Origin: Desulfobacteraceae bacterium
GTDB lineage: Bacteria; Desulfobacterota; Desulfobacteria; Desulfobacterales; UBA11574
Assembly: GCA_030671225.1 (NCBI GenBank)
Contig: DAOVAE010000006.1
Span: 1 to 14,006, forward strand
DNA: 14,006 bases
Direction of reading: 5' to 3'
Positions 75 through 11,096 of this stretch are shown here, in pieces. A program made the translations under genes and the position numbers. Each line of letters opens with the position of its first letter. Positions within the stretch are counted from its first letter, which is position 1. Under the pieces are notes generated by a model. It made no database searches. It worked only from the letters and a program-made list of their open reading frames with translations, and was not told where the DNA came from.

Positions 75-106
75 TCATGGCAAGTGCTTGGATTGCAGGG
101 CCATGA
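75..106. repeat. Short inverted repeat beside structured repeat A
   Basis: Arms TCATGGC (75-81) and GCCATGA (100-106) are perfectly complementary with an 18-base loop. The site lies about 45 bases left of the larger hairpin at 150-237 and could belong to the same mobile or structured unit. There is no T-run, so it is not a standard terminator. Confidence 0.4.
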
Positions 107-149
107 CTTGAACAGAATAACGTTTCTTTCACCTAAATTGAGCGATTGT

Positions 150-237
150 CGAGTTTGCCGAAGATGCAAGGCATGAGACATGCAGCCGTAGTTTACTACT
201 GCAAATGTCTCATAACGCAGCAGATTCGGTAAAATCG
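150..237. repeat. Structured repeat A (long imperfect hairpin, REP/MITE-like)
   Basis: A long imperfect inverted repeat: the left arm 150-181 pairs with the right arm 205-237, including the exact pair ATGAGACAT (173-181) with ATGTCTCAT (205-213). Within the loop GCAG..GTAG pairs with CTACTGC. Outer boxes are CAAGGC (167-172) and AACGCAGCAGAT (214-225). The same two boxes, in the same order and flanking a different hairpin, recur at 10587-10666, so this is one member of a family and not a chance hairpin. A 69-codon minus-strand reading frame across it is probably not a gene. Function unknown; it could be a non-autonomous mobile element, a REP-like site or a transcribed structured RNA. Confidence 0.7.
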
Positions 238-342
238 GCAAGCCCGAAGGGTTTCAAATGATGACAATTTTTTGCTTAATTAAATCAACCGATTAGATTA
301 GACCCATTAGCGACTTAAGCATTGCATATTTGTTTATAATTA
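238..342. other. AT-rich intergenic stretch, nothing recognised
   Basis: I see no reading frame with coding character, no convincing promoter and no terminator between repeat A and the decayed frame at 343-583. Confidence 0.5.
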
Positions 343-583
343 TTACTTTTTTATACCCCTGTCACTATTTGAAACGCTCAGTTTAGGTTTGAATTTGCTG
401 CTTTTTATTAAAGCCAAGGATTCAATTTCACCATCATCAAGTTCAAATAAAAAAAACTCTGTCAAAATAATTTAAAAAATCCGCCACTTCTTCGGGACTA
501 TCAGATATTTCATTTATTTTCCTATCTTGAAAGGGATGATGAATAAAATGTGGTTGAACTAAGCTGGTTTCAAGATGCAAAAG
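343..583 (-). pseudogene. Decayed reading frame with a single homopolymer frameshift
   Basis: On the minus strand two open segments have protein-like content and join if one T is removed from a run of eight (plus-strand A run about 449-456). The first segment reads ...QPHFIHHPFQDRKINE.. and then ..SPEEVADFLNYFDRVF; after the one-base correction it continues LFELDDGEIESLALIKSSKF and ends at a TAA (345-343). The joined frame is about 77 residues, has no good start codon and follows an upstream in-frame stop, so it is probably the C-terminal remnant of a larger lost gene. I do not recognise the family. It lies downstream of the small gene at 628-846 on the same strand. Chance openness in AT-rich DNA is the alternative. 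Confidence 0.35.
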
Positions 584-5704: not shown

Positions 5705-5753
5705 ATAATAATTTTGATGACTTTTTGCGAAAAAGACAATATTGGAGATTAAT

Positions 5754-6101
5754 ATGGAAACAATAAGACAGATAGAAAGAGAGATGATGCGGCTGGATCT
5801 GCCTGCTTTTGCCGCCGGCGATACTGTAAAAGTTTATGTCAAAATAAAGGAAGGCGAAAAAGAGCGTATCCAGGCTTTTCAGGGCGTTGTAATCAGCAAA
5901 CGTGGAAGCGGGACAGGCGCTACGTTTACCGTCAGGAAGGTTTCATACGGGATAGGGGTTGAGCGTATTTTCCCGCTGCATTCTCCTGTCATCGACAAAA
6001 TTGACGTGGTTACTCGCGGACGTGTACGCCGCTCAAAAATCTATTACCTGCGCAAACTAAGGGGCAAGGCTTCAAGGATAAAGGAACGCCGCTTTAACTA
6101 A
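5754..6101 (+). CDS. rplS: 50S ribosomal protein L19
   Basis: L19 lies at the 30S-50S interface of the large subunit. From the ATG at 5754 the product has 115 residues, the usual length, with [30 protein letters not shown], the arginine-led [19 protein letters not shown] and the basic ending [24 protein letters not shown] twelve bases upstream is in frame, but it overlaps the GGAG ribosome binding site (5744-5747) that lies 6 bases before the ATG, so the ATG is the start. It lies 49 bp after the methyltransferase gene. Confidence 0.97.
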
Positions 6102-6138: not shown

Positions 6139-6747
6139 ATGGGACCAGACCTGTGGTTATTCGAAAAAAAAGCCATTGATCAAGGCTTTTCAAGAATTGC
6201 CGGTATTGATGAAGCCGGTCGTGGACCACTGGCCGGTCCGGTTGTTTCCGCAGCGGTTATACTCCCCGCTTCTTTTCAGGACCCCGGTATATCCGATTCC
6301 AAGAAATTAACGCCTAAAAAACGGAATTACCTTTATGAAAAGATTTACGAAATAGCCGTTTCCATAGGTATCGGGATCATTGACCCTCCGGAGATAGATC
6401 GCATCAATATTCTGCAGGCATCTCTTTTGTCCATGGCCATGGCGGCTGAAAATCTTGCCCCGCAGGCTGATTGTCTTTTTATAGACGGTCCCTTCCCAAT
6501 TTCGTCAAACCTGCCACAGGAATCGATACCCAAAGGTGATGCGTTAAGTATTTCCATTGCTGCTGCATCTATCATAGCCAAGGTAACCCGTGACAGGTTG
6601 ATGGAAAGATACCACCAGGATTATCCGCAGTTTGGATTTTCCAGACACAAAGGATACCCAACCAAAGCCCATAAAGCAGCGATCAAACATTACGGTTGTT
6701 GCCCCATCCACAGACGCAGTTTCAAGGGGGTTAAGGAATATCTGTGA
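6139..6747 (+). CDS. rnhB: Ribonuclease HII
   Basis: RNase HII cuts RNA in RNA-DNA hybrids and starts ribonucleotide excision repair at single misincorporated ribonucleotides. The 202-residue product carries the signature AGIDEAGRGPLAGPVVSAAV with acidic residues D24 and E25, then D116 in LFIDGP and D134 in KGDALSISIAAASIIAKVTR. The 18-residue spacing of the last two agrees with the catalytic set of the E. coli enzyme as I recall it. It follows rplS by 37 bp, in the same order as in many proteobacterial genomes, and is the last housekeeping gene before the accessory region. Confidence 0.96.
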   Translation: MGPDLWLFEKKAIDQGFSRIAGIDEAGRGPLAGPVVSAAVILPASFQDPGISDSKKLTPKKRNYLYEKIYEIAVSIGIGIIDPPEIDRINILQASLLSMAMAAENLAPQADCLFIDGPFPISSNLPQESIPKGDALSISIAAASIIAKVTRDRLMERYHQDYPQFGFSRHKGYPTKAHKAAIKHYGCCPIHRRSFKGVKEYL

Positions 6748-6888: not shown

Positions 6889-7119
6889 ATGAATACAGTA
6901 AAAGTATTAACAAAAGGGCAAATCGTAATACCTGCATCGATTCGAAAAAAGTATGATATCCATCCAGGCAATGCACTCCAGATTTTTGAATACGGCAATC
7001 TTATCTATCTTGTCCCGCCGGTCAAAGATCCTGTAAAAGATGCCATGGGTTGTCTCCCACAGAATCCTTCATTGTCTAAAGCACTTTTGAATGAAAGGAG
7101 GGAGGATTTTGCCGAATGA
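6889..7119 (+). CDS. vapB: AbrB/SpoVT-family antitoxin (VapB-like)
   Basis: The antitoxin neutralises the PIN toxin encoded next to it and probably represses the operon. Of 76 residues, about 1-45 form the swapped-hairpin AbrB DNA-binding domain, with the family sequence VLTKGQIVIPASIRKKYDIH followed by PGNALQIFEYGNLIYLVPP; the C-terminal 30 residues would wrap the toxin. The stop overlaps the toxin start by 4 bp (ATGA). A promoter and a palindromic operator lie just upstream. It is preceded by a short ribosome binding site (AGGGG). Confidence 0.88.
   Translation: MNTVKVLTKGQIVIPASIRKKYDIHPGNALQIFEYGNLIYLVPPVKDPVKDAMGCLPQNPSLSKALLNERREDFAE
7095..7105 (+). promoter_or_regulatory. Strong ribosome binding site of the PIN toxin gene
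   Basis: AAGGAGGGAGG inside the 3' end of the antitoxin gene ends 10 bases before the toxin ATG at 7116 and supports that start. It is a purer Shine-Dalgarno match than the one before the antitoxin. Confidence 0.7.
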
Positions 7120-7520
7120 AATCTGGACTCCTGTTTGACAGCCATGCACTCCTTGCTTTTTTTCAAAAAGAAAACGGGGCAAAAGTCGTTTACAATATTC
7201 TGGAAAAAAGCAGGCGACAGAGCATAGATCGTCTTATTTGTGTCATCAACTTGGGTGAAATCATCTATATGACGAAAAAGCTGTTTGGCGACAAAAAAAA
7301 ATTAGAACTACTAGGTCGCATTCATCAACTTTCTTTTAAGGTTCTCCCTGTTCCCGATTCCTTAGTTTATCAGGCTGCAGAAATTAAGGCTGAATATCCG
7401 ATTTCTTACGCCGACTGCCTTGTTGTGGCCTGCGCCCAAGAGCATGACGCCACCATCGTAACCGGAGATCCTGAATTCAAGCATGTTGAACATTTAGTGA
7501 GCATTGAGTGGATTCGATAA
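7116..7520 (+). CDS. vapC: PIN-domain ribonuclease toxin (VapC-like)
   Basis: A 134-residue PIN-domain RNase. The four conserved acidic residues of the active site are visible: D8 (LLFDSHALLAFF), E48 (VINLGEIIY), D100 (ISYADCLVVACA) and D118 (ATIVTGDPEF). VapC toxins cut tRNA or the sarcin-ricin loop of 23S rRNA; this target cannot be inferred here. It is complete, with no sign of decay, in contrast to the PIN fragment near 9640. The ATGA overlap with the antitoxin gene ensures coupled expression. Confidence 0.9.
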   Translation: MKSGLLFDSHALLAFFQKENGAKVVYNILEKSRRQSIDRLICVINLGEIIYMTKKLFGDKKKLELLGRIHQLSFKVLPVPDSLVYQAAEIKAEYPISYADCLVVACAQEHDATIVTGDPEFKHVEHLVSIEWIR

Positions 7521-7616: not shown

Positions 7617-7943
7617 ATGAGCAAGAAAAAACTCAAAATAATGGTATCCTCTACAGTGTATGGTTCAGAAAGTGATTTAGATGCCATTTACAGTATACTC
7701 GACGGGTTTGGTTATGAAGTAGTCATGTCTAAGGAAGGAAATGTTTATGTGCCTGCAGGTTACACACCAAAACAAGCCTGCTTAAAAGCCGTGGAGGATT
7801 GCGATCTGTTTTTTGGTATTGTATTCCCAAGATATGGCTCCGGTATAACGCATGAAGAATTCTTAAAAGCTGAGGAATTGAGGGAGCAATTGAAGGAGCA
7901 ACTAAGGGAAAAAAAGAAAAACTTGCTGCTCTTGTTGATGTAA
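7617..7943 (+). CDS. Short DUF4062-domain protein, probably C-terminally truncated
   Basis: Residues 5-80 match the DUF4062 pattern: KIMVSSTVYGSESDLDAIYS at the start, a GYEVVMSKEGNVYVP strand-turn, a CLKAVEDCDLFFGIVFPRYG segment and the GSGITHEEFLKA motif. As I recall, DUF4062 is a Rossmann-like, TIR-related domain found at the N terminus of larger proteins, often of about 190 residues or more and with NTPase or other partners in defence loci. Here the family match stops near residue 86 and the tail is a highly charged coil (ELREQLKEQLREKKK) ending in LLLLLM. This suggests truncation or a replaced end. A full-length function is therefore doubtful. It is 110 bp upstream of the AlbA_2 gene. 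Confidence 0.65.
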   Translation: MSKKKLKIMVSSTVYGSESDLDAIYSILDGFGYEVVMSKEGNVYVPAGYTPKQACLKAVEDCDLFFGIVFPRYGSGITHEEFLKAEELREQLKEQLREKKKNLLLLLM

Positions 7944-7962: not shown

Positions 7963-7999
7963 AACTTGAGGCAAGTAGGACTTGCGGGACGTACATTAG
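7963..7999. repeat. Repeat copy 1, after the DUF4062 gene
   Basis: From AACTTG (7963) to GTACATTAG (7999), with the core GGACTTGCGG.ACGTACATTAG (7978-7999) matching 9478-9499 at 21 of 22 bases. In this copy GCAAGT (7971-7976) and ACTTGC (7980-7985) form a 6-bp stem with a 3-base loop. It begins 19 bases after the DUF4062 stop. It could be a REP-like element, a transcript-end structure or a recombination site; a partial third match, TCTTGCGGGGA, lies at 8012-8022. Confidence 0.75.
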
Positions 8000-8053: not shown

Positions 8054-9454
8054 ATGAAGAAAAGGGAATTTAAAGAACTTATTGAACAAGGCGAGGGTTA
8101 TTTTGTCGAATTTAAAGAACAGATCGGTGTAGGTCTCGATAAAGAGATGGTTGCTTTTGCAAATGCCTCTGGGGGAAAGATTGTCATAGGGGTGACGGAT
8201 AGAGATAAAATTATCGGATGCACAACCGACAATACAGTACGATCTAAAATTCAGGATATTGCCAATAACTGTGATCCCCGGATTCCGATACATATCGAAA
8301 CAGTGCGGTACGAAGGCGTAAAACTGCTTGTTGTTTCAGTAGATGAAAGTTTCGATAAGCCTTTGCGTTGCTCAAAGGGTTTCTTTTTAAGAGAGGGGCC
8401 TAATTCTCAGAAATTGACAAGAAATGAAATATTAGCACTTGCTGCTGGCGCGGAAAAATTCAAATTTGATATGCAGCCATGCAGAAGTTTCAATTATCCT
8501 GAAGATTTTAAGGACACAAAATGGCGCCATTTTTTAGATACAACAGGAATTGCTCCTCCTGAAAACAGTGAAGATTTACTGACAAATTTAGGCTTTGCAG
8601 AAGATAAAGCAGGATTTCGGATTACAAATGCCGGAGCGCTTTTTTTCGGCAGGGATATTGAATCTCATATTCGTCACAACTTTATTACCTGTGTGCTTTT
8701 TAAAGGTACTACCAAAACAAAGATACTTGATCGGAAGGATTTTAAGGTTGATCTACTTTCTAACTATGAAAATGCATTTCGCTTTTTACAGCAGCACCTC
8801 AAATTTGAGTACTTAATTGAAGATGGAGGGCCTCGAAAAGAAATTCCGGAAATTCCCCTAGAAGTTTTACGGGAGGGGCTTGTAAATGCAATTGTCCATC
8901 GAGATTATTATGAGGAAGGCGCTGGCATCCTTGTTGAAATCTACGACAACCGTGTGGAAATAATCAATCCCGGCTGCCTTCTTTTTGACAAAAGTAAGTT
9001 TGGAAAGCTGAGTGTAGCGCGAAATCCTATAATATTCGATGCGTTTTATCGACTTGGGATCACCGAGAAAATCGGCTCCGGTATTAATAGAATGCGTGAA
9101 GCTATGACTGAAAGGGGTATTAAAATTGCGTTTGATACAGAGGACTTTTTTATTGTAACCTTAACAAGGCCGGAAACTACACAAAAAGAAGTTACCCCCC
9201 AAGTTATCCCCCAAGTTACCCCCCAAGCTTTGAGTGATGTTGAATTGAGGATATTAGGATTTTGCCATGAAGAGAGATCAGCTTCAGAGATCATAAATTT
9301 CACAGGAATGAATCCGGATTATATTCGGAAAGATATCATTCCCAAATTGATTAAAAAGGGCTTTTTGGTTTTAACAATACCGAATAAACCGAGAAGCCCT
9401 CACCAAAAGTATATCCTCACAGAAGCGGTAATGAAACATGTCAAAACAATGTAG
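8054..9454 (+). CDS. Schlafen AlbA_2 / HATPase-domain protein
   Basis: The 466 residues divide into an N-terminal Schlafen AlbA_2 domain (about 15-125, with EFKEQIGVGLDKEMVAFANA and GGKIVIGVTDRD), a middle region, an HATPase_c_4-type ATP-binding domain (about 270-370, with the N-box-like EGLVNAIVHRDYYE, DNRVEIINPG and IGSGINRM), a short linker of three near-identical 4-residue units (380-391) and a C-terminal winged-helix-like segment (about 395-460). Proteins of this architecture are often annotated as ATP-binding or transcriptional regulators. Some AlbA_2 proteins occur in phage-defence contexts, and here a DUF4062 gene lies just upstream. Substrate and partners are unknown. A purine-rich GAAGAG precedes the ATG. 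Confidence 0.88.
   Translation: MKKREFKELIEQGEGYFVEFKEQIGVGLDKEMVAFANASGGKIVIGVTDRDKIIGCTTDNTVRSKIQDIANNCDPRIPIHIETVRYEGVKLLVVSVDESFDKPLRCSKGFFLREGPNSQKLTRNEILALAAGAEKFKFDMQPCRSFNYPEDFKDTKWRHFLDTTGIAPPENSEDLLTNLGFAEDKAGFRITNAGALFFGRDIESHIRHNFITCVLFKGTTKTKILDRKDFKVDLLSNYENAFRFLQQHLKFEYLIEDGGPRKEIPEIPLEVLREGLVNAIVHRDYYEEGAGILVEIYDNRVEIINPGCLLFDKSKFGKLSVARNPIIFDAFYRLGITEKIGSGINRMREAMTERGIKIAFDTEDFFIVTLTRPETTQKEVTPQVIPQVTPQALSDVELRILGFCHEERSASEIINFTGMNPDYIRKDIIPKLIKKGFLVLTIPNKPRSPHQKYILTEAVMKHVKTM
9191..9226 (+). repeat. Three tandem 12-bp repeats inside the AlbA_2 gene
   Basis: Three consecutive units of GTTA[C/T]CCCCCAA occupy 9191-9226 and encode VTPQ-VIPQ-VTPQ. Only one base differs in the middle copy. 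Since 12 is a multiple of 3, gain or loss of units by slippage would change linker length between the ATPase and winged-helix domains without breaking the frame. C-runs of six or five add further slippage risk. Confidence 0.85.
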
Positions 9455-9468
9455 AATCAGAGCAAGAG

Positions 9469-9499
9469 AACTTGGGCGGACTTGCGGTACGTACATTAG
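9469..9499. repeat. Repeat copy 2, after the AlbA_2 gene
   Basis: Starts with AACTTG (9469) and ends with the core GGACTTGCGGTACGTACATT.. (9478-9499), 21 of 22 bases identical to the copy at 7978-7999. It starts 14 bases after the AlbA_2 stop, almost the same placement as copy 1 has after the DUF4062 gene. Five bases of copy 1 (AAGTA) are missing before the core. Confidence 0.75.
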
Positions 9500-10096: not shown

Positions 10097-10522
10097 ATGA
10101 TTCAGATAACCACAGACATATCAATTGATGAAAAAGAAATAAAAATGGATTTTATCCGTGCATCAGGTCCGGGGGGACAGAACGTTAATAAAGTTGCTTC
10201 AGCTGTACAGTTGCGATTTGATGTTTATGGTTCTCCATCTTTGCCGGATGATGTACGTAAAAGACTTACCCTTTTGTCAGGAAACAGGATCAATGAAGAC
10301 GGTATTCTAATAATAGACGCCAGAAGATTCCGCACGCAGAATCGTAACCGTCAGGATGCAATTGACAGGCTGATCGATCTAATACGCAAATCAACGATCA
10401 AACCAAAAAAACGCTTAAAAACAAAACCTTCCGTCGCGTCAAAAAGACGTATACAGGAAGATAAGCGTCGCCGCAGTAAAAGAAAACGTATGAGAGGTCC
10501 GGTTCGAGATATTGAAGATTAG
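10097..10522 (+). CDS. arfB: Alternative ribosome-rescue factor ArfB (peptidyl-tRNA hydrolase)
   Basis: ArfB enters ribosomes stalled at mRNA ends and hydrolyses the peptidyl-tRNA. The 141-residue product has the release-factor signature ASGPGGQNVNKVASAVQLRF with the catalytic GGQ at 26-28, and a lysine/arginine-rich C-terminal tail (about 107-137, e.g. KRRIQEDKRRRSKRKR) that in ArfB enters the empty mRNA channel. Lack of the codon-recognition domains sets it apart from RF1/RF2. A GGGCAGG before the ATG may be its ribosome binding site. It is 18 bp after the small broken gene; repeat element B follows 11 bp after its stop. Confidence 0.93.
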   Translation: MIQITTDISIDEKEIKMDFIRASGPGGQNVNKVASAVQLRFDVYGSPSLPDDVRKRLTLLSGNRINEDGILIIDARRFRTQNRNRQDAIDRLIDLIRKSTIKPKKRLKTKPSVASKRRIQEDKRRRSKRKRMRGPVRDIED

Positions 10523-10533
10523 TATTGTCAGTC

Positions 10534-10680
10534 TCGTAAAAAGTCATGAATTCAACTATAGATGGCTAAGTAAAAAGGTTCATATACAAGGCGTAGAATT
10601 TTTTCAGGAACGAGGCCATACATGTAGTATGCCGAGTGTCTGAAAAAATACTACAACGCAGTAGATGGGACTTTTTACGA
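10534..10680. mobile_element. Structured repeat B (MITE-like, 12-bp terminal inverted repeats)
   Basis: TCGTAAAAAGTC (10534-10545) and GACTTTTTACGA (10669-10680) are perfect terminal inverted repeats. A second GTAAAAAG lies inside at 10570-10577, preceded by GATGG, as though the left end were duplicated. Inside, ATTTTTTCAG pairs with CTGAAAAAAT and GGCCATAC with GTATGCC, forming a long hairpin. CAAGGC (10587-10592) and AACGCAGTAGAT (10655-10666) are the same boxes as in repeat A. No coding frame is present, so any movement would need a transposase elsewhere. TCAGT occurs on both sides (10528-10532, 10686-10690) but not directly abutting, so a target duplication is unproven. It may also act as an arfB terminator. 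Confidence 0.75.
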
Positions 10681-10724
10681 CGCCATCAGTATTTACATAG
10701 GCAAAAAGAGTGGTTTAAGGTTTT

Positions 10725-11096
10725 ATGATGATAAACGAGCGACAGACATTTGGCAAAGAAAGTGAGTCCATAGCCGTCAGGCACCTTAAAAAAAACGGAT
10801 ACAAAATTCTGGAACAAAATTACCGTAACAAGCTGGGAGAGATCGATATTATTGCAAAAGACAAGGGTACGCTGGTCTTTGTGGAGGTCAAAGCAAGAAA
10901 ATCCGGTCTTTTCGGAAATCCCAAATGGGCTGTAACTCCTAAAAAGCAGCGTAAAATTTCGATGGTGGCACTCTACTATCTTAAAGCCACAAAACAGCAT
11001 AATGTAAAAGCAAGGTTTGATGTGGTAAGCATAGTTTCTGCAGAAGAAAACCCTTGCATAGAGATCGTTAAAAATGCCTTCGAACTCGCATATTGA
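10725..11096 (+). CDS. yraN: YraN family (UPF0102) endonuclease-like protein
   Basis: The 123-residue product has the UPF0102 layout: GKESESIAVRHLKKNGYKIL, then NYRNKLGEIDIIAKD and LVFVEVKARKSGLFGNP, and finally QRKISMVALYYL. The GEID..VEVKAR pair is the PD-(D/E)XK nuclease-fold signature, and a role in DNA processing is presumed but unproven. ATG at 10725 and ATG at 10728 are both possible; the AAGG at 10717-10720 suits the second better. It overlaps rsmI by 23 bp, a common neighbour. Confidence 0.92.
   Translation: MMINERQTFGKESESIAVRHLKKNGYKILEQNYRNKLGEIDIIAKDKGTLVFVEVKARKSGLFGNPKWAVTPKKQRKISMVALYYLKATKQHNVKARFDVVSIVSAEENPCIEIVKNAFELAY

Follow-up and report, generated by a model that had tools for sequence, protein, structure and literature searches.

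In this study, we analysed a window of 14,006 nucleotides, i.e., the whole stretch at positions 1 to 14,006 of contig DAOVAE010000006.1 in the Desulfobacteraceae assembly GCA_030671225.1, a draft genome of 1.06 Mb in 153 contigs that is 68.7% complete. Two structured elements are found in it. Element A lies upstream of the first long open reading frame (ORF) of the window, which is rlmN-like (896-1936), while element B lies between an RF-1-domain ORF that ends at 10522 and a UPF0102 ORF that starts at 10725; the single listed ORF within either element is on the minus strand and overlaps the last two bases of B. Between ORF 6139-6747 and the RF-1-domain ORF, a PIN-domain ORF (7116-7520), a DUF4062 ORF (7617-7943) and a Schlafen/AlbA_2 ORF (8054-9454) look like an inserted module, and the Schlafen/AlbA_2 ORF is bracketed by a 22-bp direct repeat (7978-7999 and 9478-9499, 95% identical). 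The stretch TTGATGACTTTTTGCGAAAAAGACAATA (5714-5741), which directly precedes an ORF that we take to be ribosomal protein L19-like (5742-6101), matches the left end of B with 82% complementarity and may be a terminal repeat left behind by a copy that was lost. The features of both elements are listed below with the scores of two covariance models, R1, which was built from 20 loci without a Desulfobacterota label in their titles (one titled only "Proteobacteria bacterium"), and R2, which was built from 20 Enterobacterales elements.

131-388, forward strand: element A, 258 bp, composed of terminal inverted repeat (TIR), core hairpin, small CCC-GAAG-GGG hairpin, second hairpin and TIR
131-144, forward strand: left TIR of A, ACCTAAATTGAGCG, with similar left ends in loci L077, L100, L112, L129, L167 and L183
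140-247, forward strand: core hairpin of A (R1 63.8 bits, E 6.5e-18; R2 E 1.7e-13)
164-172, forward strand: left box of A, ATGCAAGGC, with CAAGGC at 167-172; its TGC is paired to the GCA in the right box
173-181, forward strand: 5' side of the inner arm of A, ATGAGACAT (sequence and predicted fold)
205-213, forward strand: 3' side of the inner arm of A, ATGTCTCAT (sequence and predicted fold)
214-225, forward strand: right box of A, AACGCAGCAGAT (sequence and pattern match)
375-388, forward strand: right TIR of A, CGCTCAGTTTAGGT, with similar right ends in the same six relatives
10521-10526, no strand: left target-site duplication of B, AGTATT, overlapping the stop codon of the upstream ORF
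10527-10687, forward strand: element B, 161 bp, from GTCAGTCTCGTAAAAAGTC to GACTTTTTACGACGCCATC
10560-10688, forward strand: core hairpin of B, extent of the model match (R1 42.6 bits, E 2.2e-11; R2 E 1.8e-8)
10584-10592, forward strand: left box of B, ATACAAGGC, with CAAGGC at 10587-10592; TAC pairs with GTA
10593-10607, forward strand: 5' side of the inner arm of B (sequence and fold)
10640-10654, forward strand: 3' side of the inner arm of B (sequence and fold)
10655-10666, forward strand: right box of B, AACGCAGTAGAT (sequence and pattern match)
10667-10687, forward strand: 3' outer arm of B, doubling as the right terminal repeat of the element (sequence and comparison of B-type copies)
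10688-10693, no strand: right target-site duplication of B, AGTATT, a direct repeat of 10521-10526

The original prediction had described two repeats that share outer boxes around swapped, still self-complementary arms, and this was confirmed at 167-225 in A and 10587-10666 in B. The spans that it assigned to them (150-237 and 10534-10680) proved to be too short, as the core of A covers 140-247 in an element of 131-388 and element B covers 10527-10687. The GTAGT that it pointed out in both loops is indeed present in both, but it sits in the variable apical hairpin and is no feature of the family. The C/T difference between the right boxes is due to compensation, i.e., TGC with GCA in A and TAC with GTA in B. 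The predicted fold of A is a junction of three hairpins (the core, CCC-GAAG-GGG and the second one) that is closed by ACCTAAATTGAGCG and CGCTCAGTTTAGGT, and A-like right ends were found approximately 146-150 bases past the core by pattern in L077, L112 and L183 and by eye in L100, L129 and L167. A search for a second core inside A found none, and neither a clear target-site duplication nor a clear TA was found at its borders. Using BLAST, A matched only itself in its own genome; nevertheless, a structural cousin of A is present there on C21. The window copy of B, whose left end is decayed, gave 32 BLAST matches in the same genome including itself, some of which represent two halves of a single copy or the two strands of a single site. 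Its near-full-length relatives are 67-71% identical, apart from one copy at 99%, and form a diverged family with TTCAAGGC...AACGCAGAAG boxes. Among the B-family copies of this genome, L015, L017 and L026 carry an extra insert of approximately 100 bp with inverted ends in the hairpin, perhaps a nested miniature element, and L015, L020, L027 and L030 share a recurrent variant with an extra CGGCTATCCGCYGGTCCCGTRGGGA-like stretch in the apical part.

The core that is common to both elements has the form [outer stem]-A(G/T)A-TNC-AAGGC-[inner stem and apical hairpin]-AACGCA-GNA-GAT-[outer stem]. An asymmetric internal loop holds its two boxes opposite each other; part of their invariance is built in, as the scans required the box letters, and every stem varies with compensation. 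TGC:GCA pairing was found in 51 of the 55 cluster representatives, with mismatches flanking it on the outside and the AAGGC/AACGCA loop on the inside. Among 54 representatives (L140 was dropped), the outer stem was paired in 85.6% of the cells compared with 46.7% after shuffling and 35-44% when the arms were slid, and several standard pair types occurred at each of its first 14 pairs; the inner stem was paired in 72.8% compared with 46.3% after shuffling. A check on 20 rows gave 78.3% versus 54.6% paired and a score of 0.585 versus 0.187. The alignments comprised 52 of the 55 clusters (A1, from which L140, L164 and L132 were left out), 20 of these 52 rows picked by the length of the inner arm (A2), and 20 of the 22 loci with the exact box pattern from 30 loci inspected (A3). 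Moreover, in the 205 distinct copies that passed the arm filter, to which this count is confined, the middle pair of TNC:GNA was G-C in 154, A-T in 36, T-A in 12 and another combination in three, the G-C class being inflated because the genome scan asked for that form; the compensated variants TGC/GCA, TAC/GTA and TTC/GAA thus account for 202 of the 205.

The pattern CAAGGC(N20-80)AACGCAG[CT]AGAT, with which the original prediction proposed to search the host and its relatives, had four matches in the own genome and was present in 59 of 146 genomes (the own one and 145 relatives), while the reversed pattern had none in any of them. Of 30 loci fetched from these matches, 22 passed the arm threshold and eight failed, with L037 and L054 clearly having no arms; part of the pattern matches are chance or decayed copies. 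On GTDB genome contigs, ATGCAAGGC(N24-54)AACGCAGCAGAT was found in at least 120 stretches. An arm test with a fixed threshold, in which inner and outer arms had to pair, was passed by 99 of 117 testable genome loci compared with one of 108 testable loci among 109 viral-contig stretches that were collected with a slightly looser box pattern. The 18 genome loci that failed include several that have a full outer stem and an unpaired inner start (e.g., L067 and L103) and one that resembles a chance match (L140). With many further copies, complementary arms and strong covariation, the reading that swapped arms are kept under selection on pairing rather than on sequence is supported.

Model searches extended this distribution. 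In the window, R1 matched just two places at E up to 1, namely A and B, and at E 0.001 it matched the own genome 17 times; these scores are not independent of the boxes, since the training loci were chosen by boxes whose letters are invariant by construction. At the same threshold, R1 matched all 34 genomes that were reached via such loci, with one to 113 copies each and at least ten in 22; as these genomes were preselected for the pattern and no more than 115 candidates were scored in each, the figures are neither prevalences nor full counts. Judging by genome titles, the core occurs in twelve groups named at phylum level, often in tens of dispersed copies: Pseudomonadota, Desulfobacterota, Bacillota, Streptomyces, Acidobacteria, Aminicenantes, Omnitrophota, Elusimicrobia, Verrucomicrobiales, Lentisphaerae, Brocadiaceae and members of Bacteroidota, although single contigs could be misbinned because many of these genomes are metagenome-assembled. 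In the order of Pasteurella testudinis, 70 of 197 genomes had model matches at E 0.01. Rfam 15 had no match above the gathering score in the window and only three tRNAs among 12 related loci, and at E up to 10 nothing credible was returned for window positions 100-320 or for positions 5180-5420 of L104; the idea of a self-cleaving ribozyme was likewise rejected, with no match at either gathering or permissive thresholds. A BLAST search with a partial Polaromonas element found no match in plasmids, which is uninformative for a fragmentary query.

Both A and B are short, non-coding and bounded by terminal inverted repeats, and B has a duplicated target, as is characteristic of miniature inverted-repeat transposable elements (MITEs). 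The own genome and its relatives provided 21 complete B-type copies (the window copy was not among them); direct repeats of 6-8 bp flanked 15 of these and were shorter or missing in six, compared with approximately 4% of shuffled flank pairs. The Faecalibacterium set comprises 19 elements with a length of exactly 162 bp and the terminal repeat GGGTGTATCTGAGAAGTC, of which 14 have TA at both ends; of 30 terminal-repeat pairs in Guyparkeria, 18 span 268 bp and 11 have TA at both ends. The terminal-repeat scan of the stretches from these two genera returned wider pairs of 1.65-3.83 kb in addition to the miniature elements. At ten Guyparkeria loci, the model found 13 pairs of oppositely oriented cores lying back to back, and four single cores. 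The comparisons show that element ends differ by lineage while the predicted core stays the same. Duplicated targets and terminal repeats speak for ordinary transposition in trans. In L326 (genome G145) and in L164, direct tandem copies of an element with its flank lie 255 and 237 bp apart, respectively, which suggests local duplication of the whole unit.

Further analysis concerned the strand on which the core folds. The RNA folding z-scores against shuffles were -6.7 for A and -8.4 for B on the strand that carries the boxes, and -4.9 and -6.4 on the opposite one. Within the outer stem, 55 G.T and six A.C mismatches were counted on the box strand at positions flanked by Watson-Crick pairs (55 representatives). 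Because a G.T on one strand is an A.C on the other, a palindrome that acts as double-stranded DNA predicts equal counts; thus, one strand seems to be selected for folding. Counted per representative (n=54), G.T was in excess in 37, A.C in two, and 15 were tied. The ratio of G.T to A.C was 27:1 in Desulfobacterota, 5:0 in each of Betaproteobacteria, other Proteobacteria and Firmicutes, 8:2 in other phyla and 12:1 in the B-type clusters (54 rows, without L140). If selection acts on the fold of one strand, as seems to be the case, this suggests a signal in RNA or single-stranded DNA that has so far gone unrecognised. The original prediction had offered a structured RNA or a hairpin-recognised mobile element, and both halves of it hold, one in the strand bias of pairing and the other in the terminal repeats and duplicated targets.

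With moderate confidence, we read A and B as MITEs of two families that contain the same strand-specific structured core, which most likely acts as RNA. The working form would be a folded single strand, most likely RNA, that arises by read-through or is made from the element. Its internal loop could be recognised by a broadly conserved host factor, e.g., a nuclease or an RNA-binding protein, and insertion of an element may alter the processing or stability of a host transcript. The inverted double cores of Guyparkeria would provide one correctly oriented core for either direction of transcription. RNA is favoured over single-stranded DNA because of the precedent of ERIC, because wobble pairs are common in RNA helices and because no single-strand transposase is associated with the core. 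Several observations argue against the RNA reading. Based on crude ORF calls, the copies had no sense preference to their neighbours (upstream gene in the same sense in 24 and opposite in 42; downstream gene, 30 and 36), and 22 of 97 copies lie inside called open frames of at least 100 codons. Moreover, the opposite strand folds too, the bias was not significant in the Enterobacterales alignment (G.T:A.C 7:4) and was weak in the inner stem (12:8), hairpins of single-stranded DNA also tolerate G.T, and no transposase with ends that match the elements was found.

A second reading, in which the core is a REP-like hairpin of single-stranded DNA that is read by a single-strand transposase or while the lagging strand is being synthesised, is in our opinion rather unlikely. 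It predicts the same strand bias; A and B also fold as DNA (z-scores of -4.9 and -7.6), the inverted core pairs resemble REPINs, and no duplicated target was noticed for the A-type copies of G145, whose right border is not established. However, no core was found in 30 fetched loci of Y1_Tnp (Pfam), of a few kb each, nor near the own Y1 gene, and mobilisation by RAYT/Y1 was rejected on these grounds. Y1 is present in 127 of the 146 genomes regardless of the core, and G005, which is 88% complete, has nine pattern matches and no Y1 match. The duplicated targets and terminal repeats of the B-type and TA-type elements are typical of double-strand transposition, and GC skew around 25 copies was positive in nine, i.e., without a clear strand preference. 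Positions 1156-2360 of L295, in C138 of the own genome, can be read as a Y1-type transposase-like frame that is interrupted by one stop; a 189-aa ORF comes after it in another frame, and no cores lie nearby.

It is also conceivable that A and B are plain double-strand MITEs whose arms are kept complementary by template switching during replication and have no function as a single strand. Terminal repeats and target duplications would be expected of such elements, and the bias is clear only in the vicinity of the core: in 192 copies from 52 clusters, G.T:A.C was 45:6 within approximately 15 bp of it, 3:4 in the next ten positions and 9:5 farther away; the Enterobacterales ratio agrees with this account as well. 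We nevertheless consider it improbable, as it explains neither the excess of G.T near the core nor the unpaired boxes that are shared across phyla and the combination of one core with different ends. A stand-alone small RNA gene family or a cis-regulatory RNA of one pathway, to which a covarying structure with conserved loop letters would be well suited, is highly improbable for copies that are dispersed and numerous, have terminal repeats and target duplications, and lack an Rfam match.

Returning to mobile elements with a structured core that most likely acts as RNA, the strand bias predicts that the effect of the box strand depends on orientation. In the papers whose accessible text was covered, the listed matches to the literal box strings were unrelated and none of them contained the longer box; likewise, the accessible literature searched, with subscription journals largely outside it, did not describe a phylum-crossing family of this kind. 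Similar to REP/REPIN sequences with RAYT, the elements are dispersed hairpins with mismatched bulges that sometimes form inverted pairs. Unlike them, they have target duplications, a core absent from the Y1 loci, and a core length of approximately 100 nt compared with 20-40 for REP in the accessible text of PMC3733652; the GTAG foot that marks the base of the REP hairpin (20-40 nt) is absent in A and B, in which GTAGT sits apically. By description, Correia (CREE/NEMIS) and RUP are alike in being MITEs with TA at their ends and structured transcripts (accessible text of PMC2229807); the Chunjie MITE of Geobacter uraniireducens is alike in being a MITE, of 178-235 bp, that has terminal and direct repeats (accessible text of PMC10969869).

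The comparison with ERIC is a post hoc test on related sequences. ERIC, which is used for strain typing, shares with the elements described here the AAGGC and AACGCA boxes on either side of an inner stem, a trait of several ERIC copies that is present in both A and B of the window. Between ybhJ and ybhI, E. coli has a copy with the sequence ...TTGCAGGAAGGC-[stem]-AACGCAGCACATGCAA... Additionally, ERIC (IRU, RU-1) is alike in its length of approximately 127 bp, the TA at its ends and its single long hairpin with an outer stem on both sides of the boxes. Both exact boxes were found in five of nine ERIC copies and boxes with arms in three of nine; among 200,000 random 140-mers modelled on one ERIC copy, 681 had the boxes and eight the boxes and arms. 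The top hit of both models fell on ERIC, but weakly: R1 had E 0.11 on one copy, and R2 gave E values of 0.0091 to 2.8 on seven of the nine copies, 7.1 on one and no match on one. Four alignments were displayed, all with the boxes in register; TNC and GNA are both missing in the three best-scoring copies and only the left one in the E. coli copy. ERIC differs in its longer apical part, its weak model scores and the incomplete TNC:GNA helix of the four aligned copies, and it targets TA, whereas B of the window has a 6-bp duplication and A no clear TA. According to the accessible text of PMC2229807, ERIC was first described in 1990-1991, and its RNA has an orientation-dependent effect on transcript stability in Yersinia; the available descriptions come from enterobacteria and V. 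cholerae. On the suggestive evidence of these sequence comparisons, ERIC of Enterobacteriaceae is probably a divergent member of the core family.

A broader reading is possible and is offered tentatively: the core may be one ancient structured RNA (or single-stranded DNA) module, conserved in sequence only at its asymmetric internal loop, that is carried by several lineages of miniature transposons whose ends differ, spans most bacterial phyla, is represented in enterobacteria by ERIC, and is read by a universally conserved host factor. It would then rank among the most abundant structured nucleic-acid motifs of bacteria that have not yet been classified. A covariance model would allow many intergenic repeats to be annotated, and a shared core would offer a testable recognition site in the two short boxes that oppose each other in the internal loop. 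The survey of stem-loop repeats in PMC2267715 treats, in its accessible text, ERIC, NEMIS, YPAL and further repeats as distinct families that are listed species by species; if the core is shared across phyla, such supposedly unrelated, species-specific repeats would represent one family.
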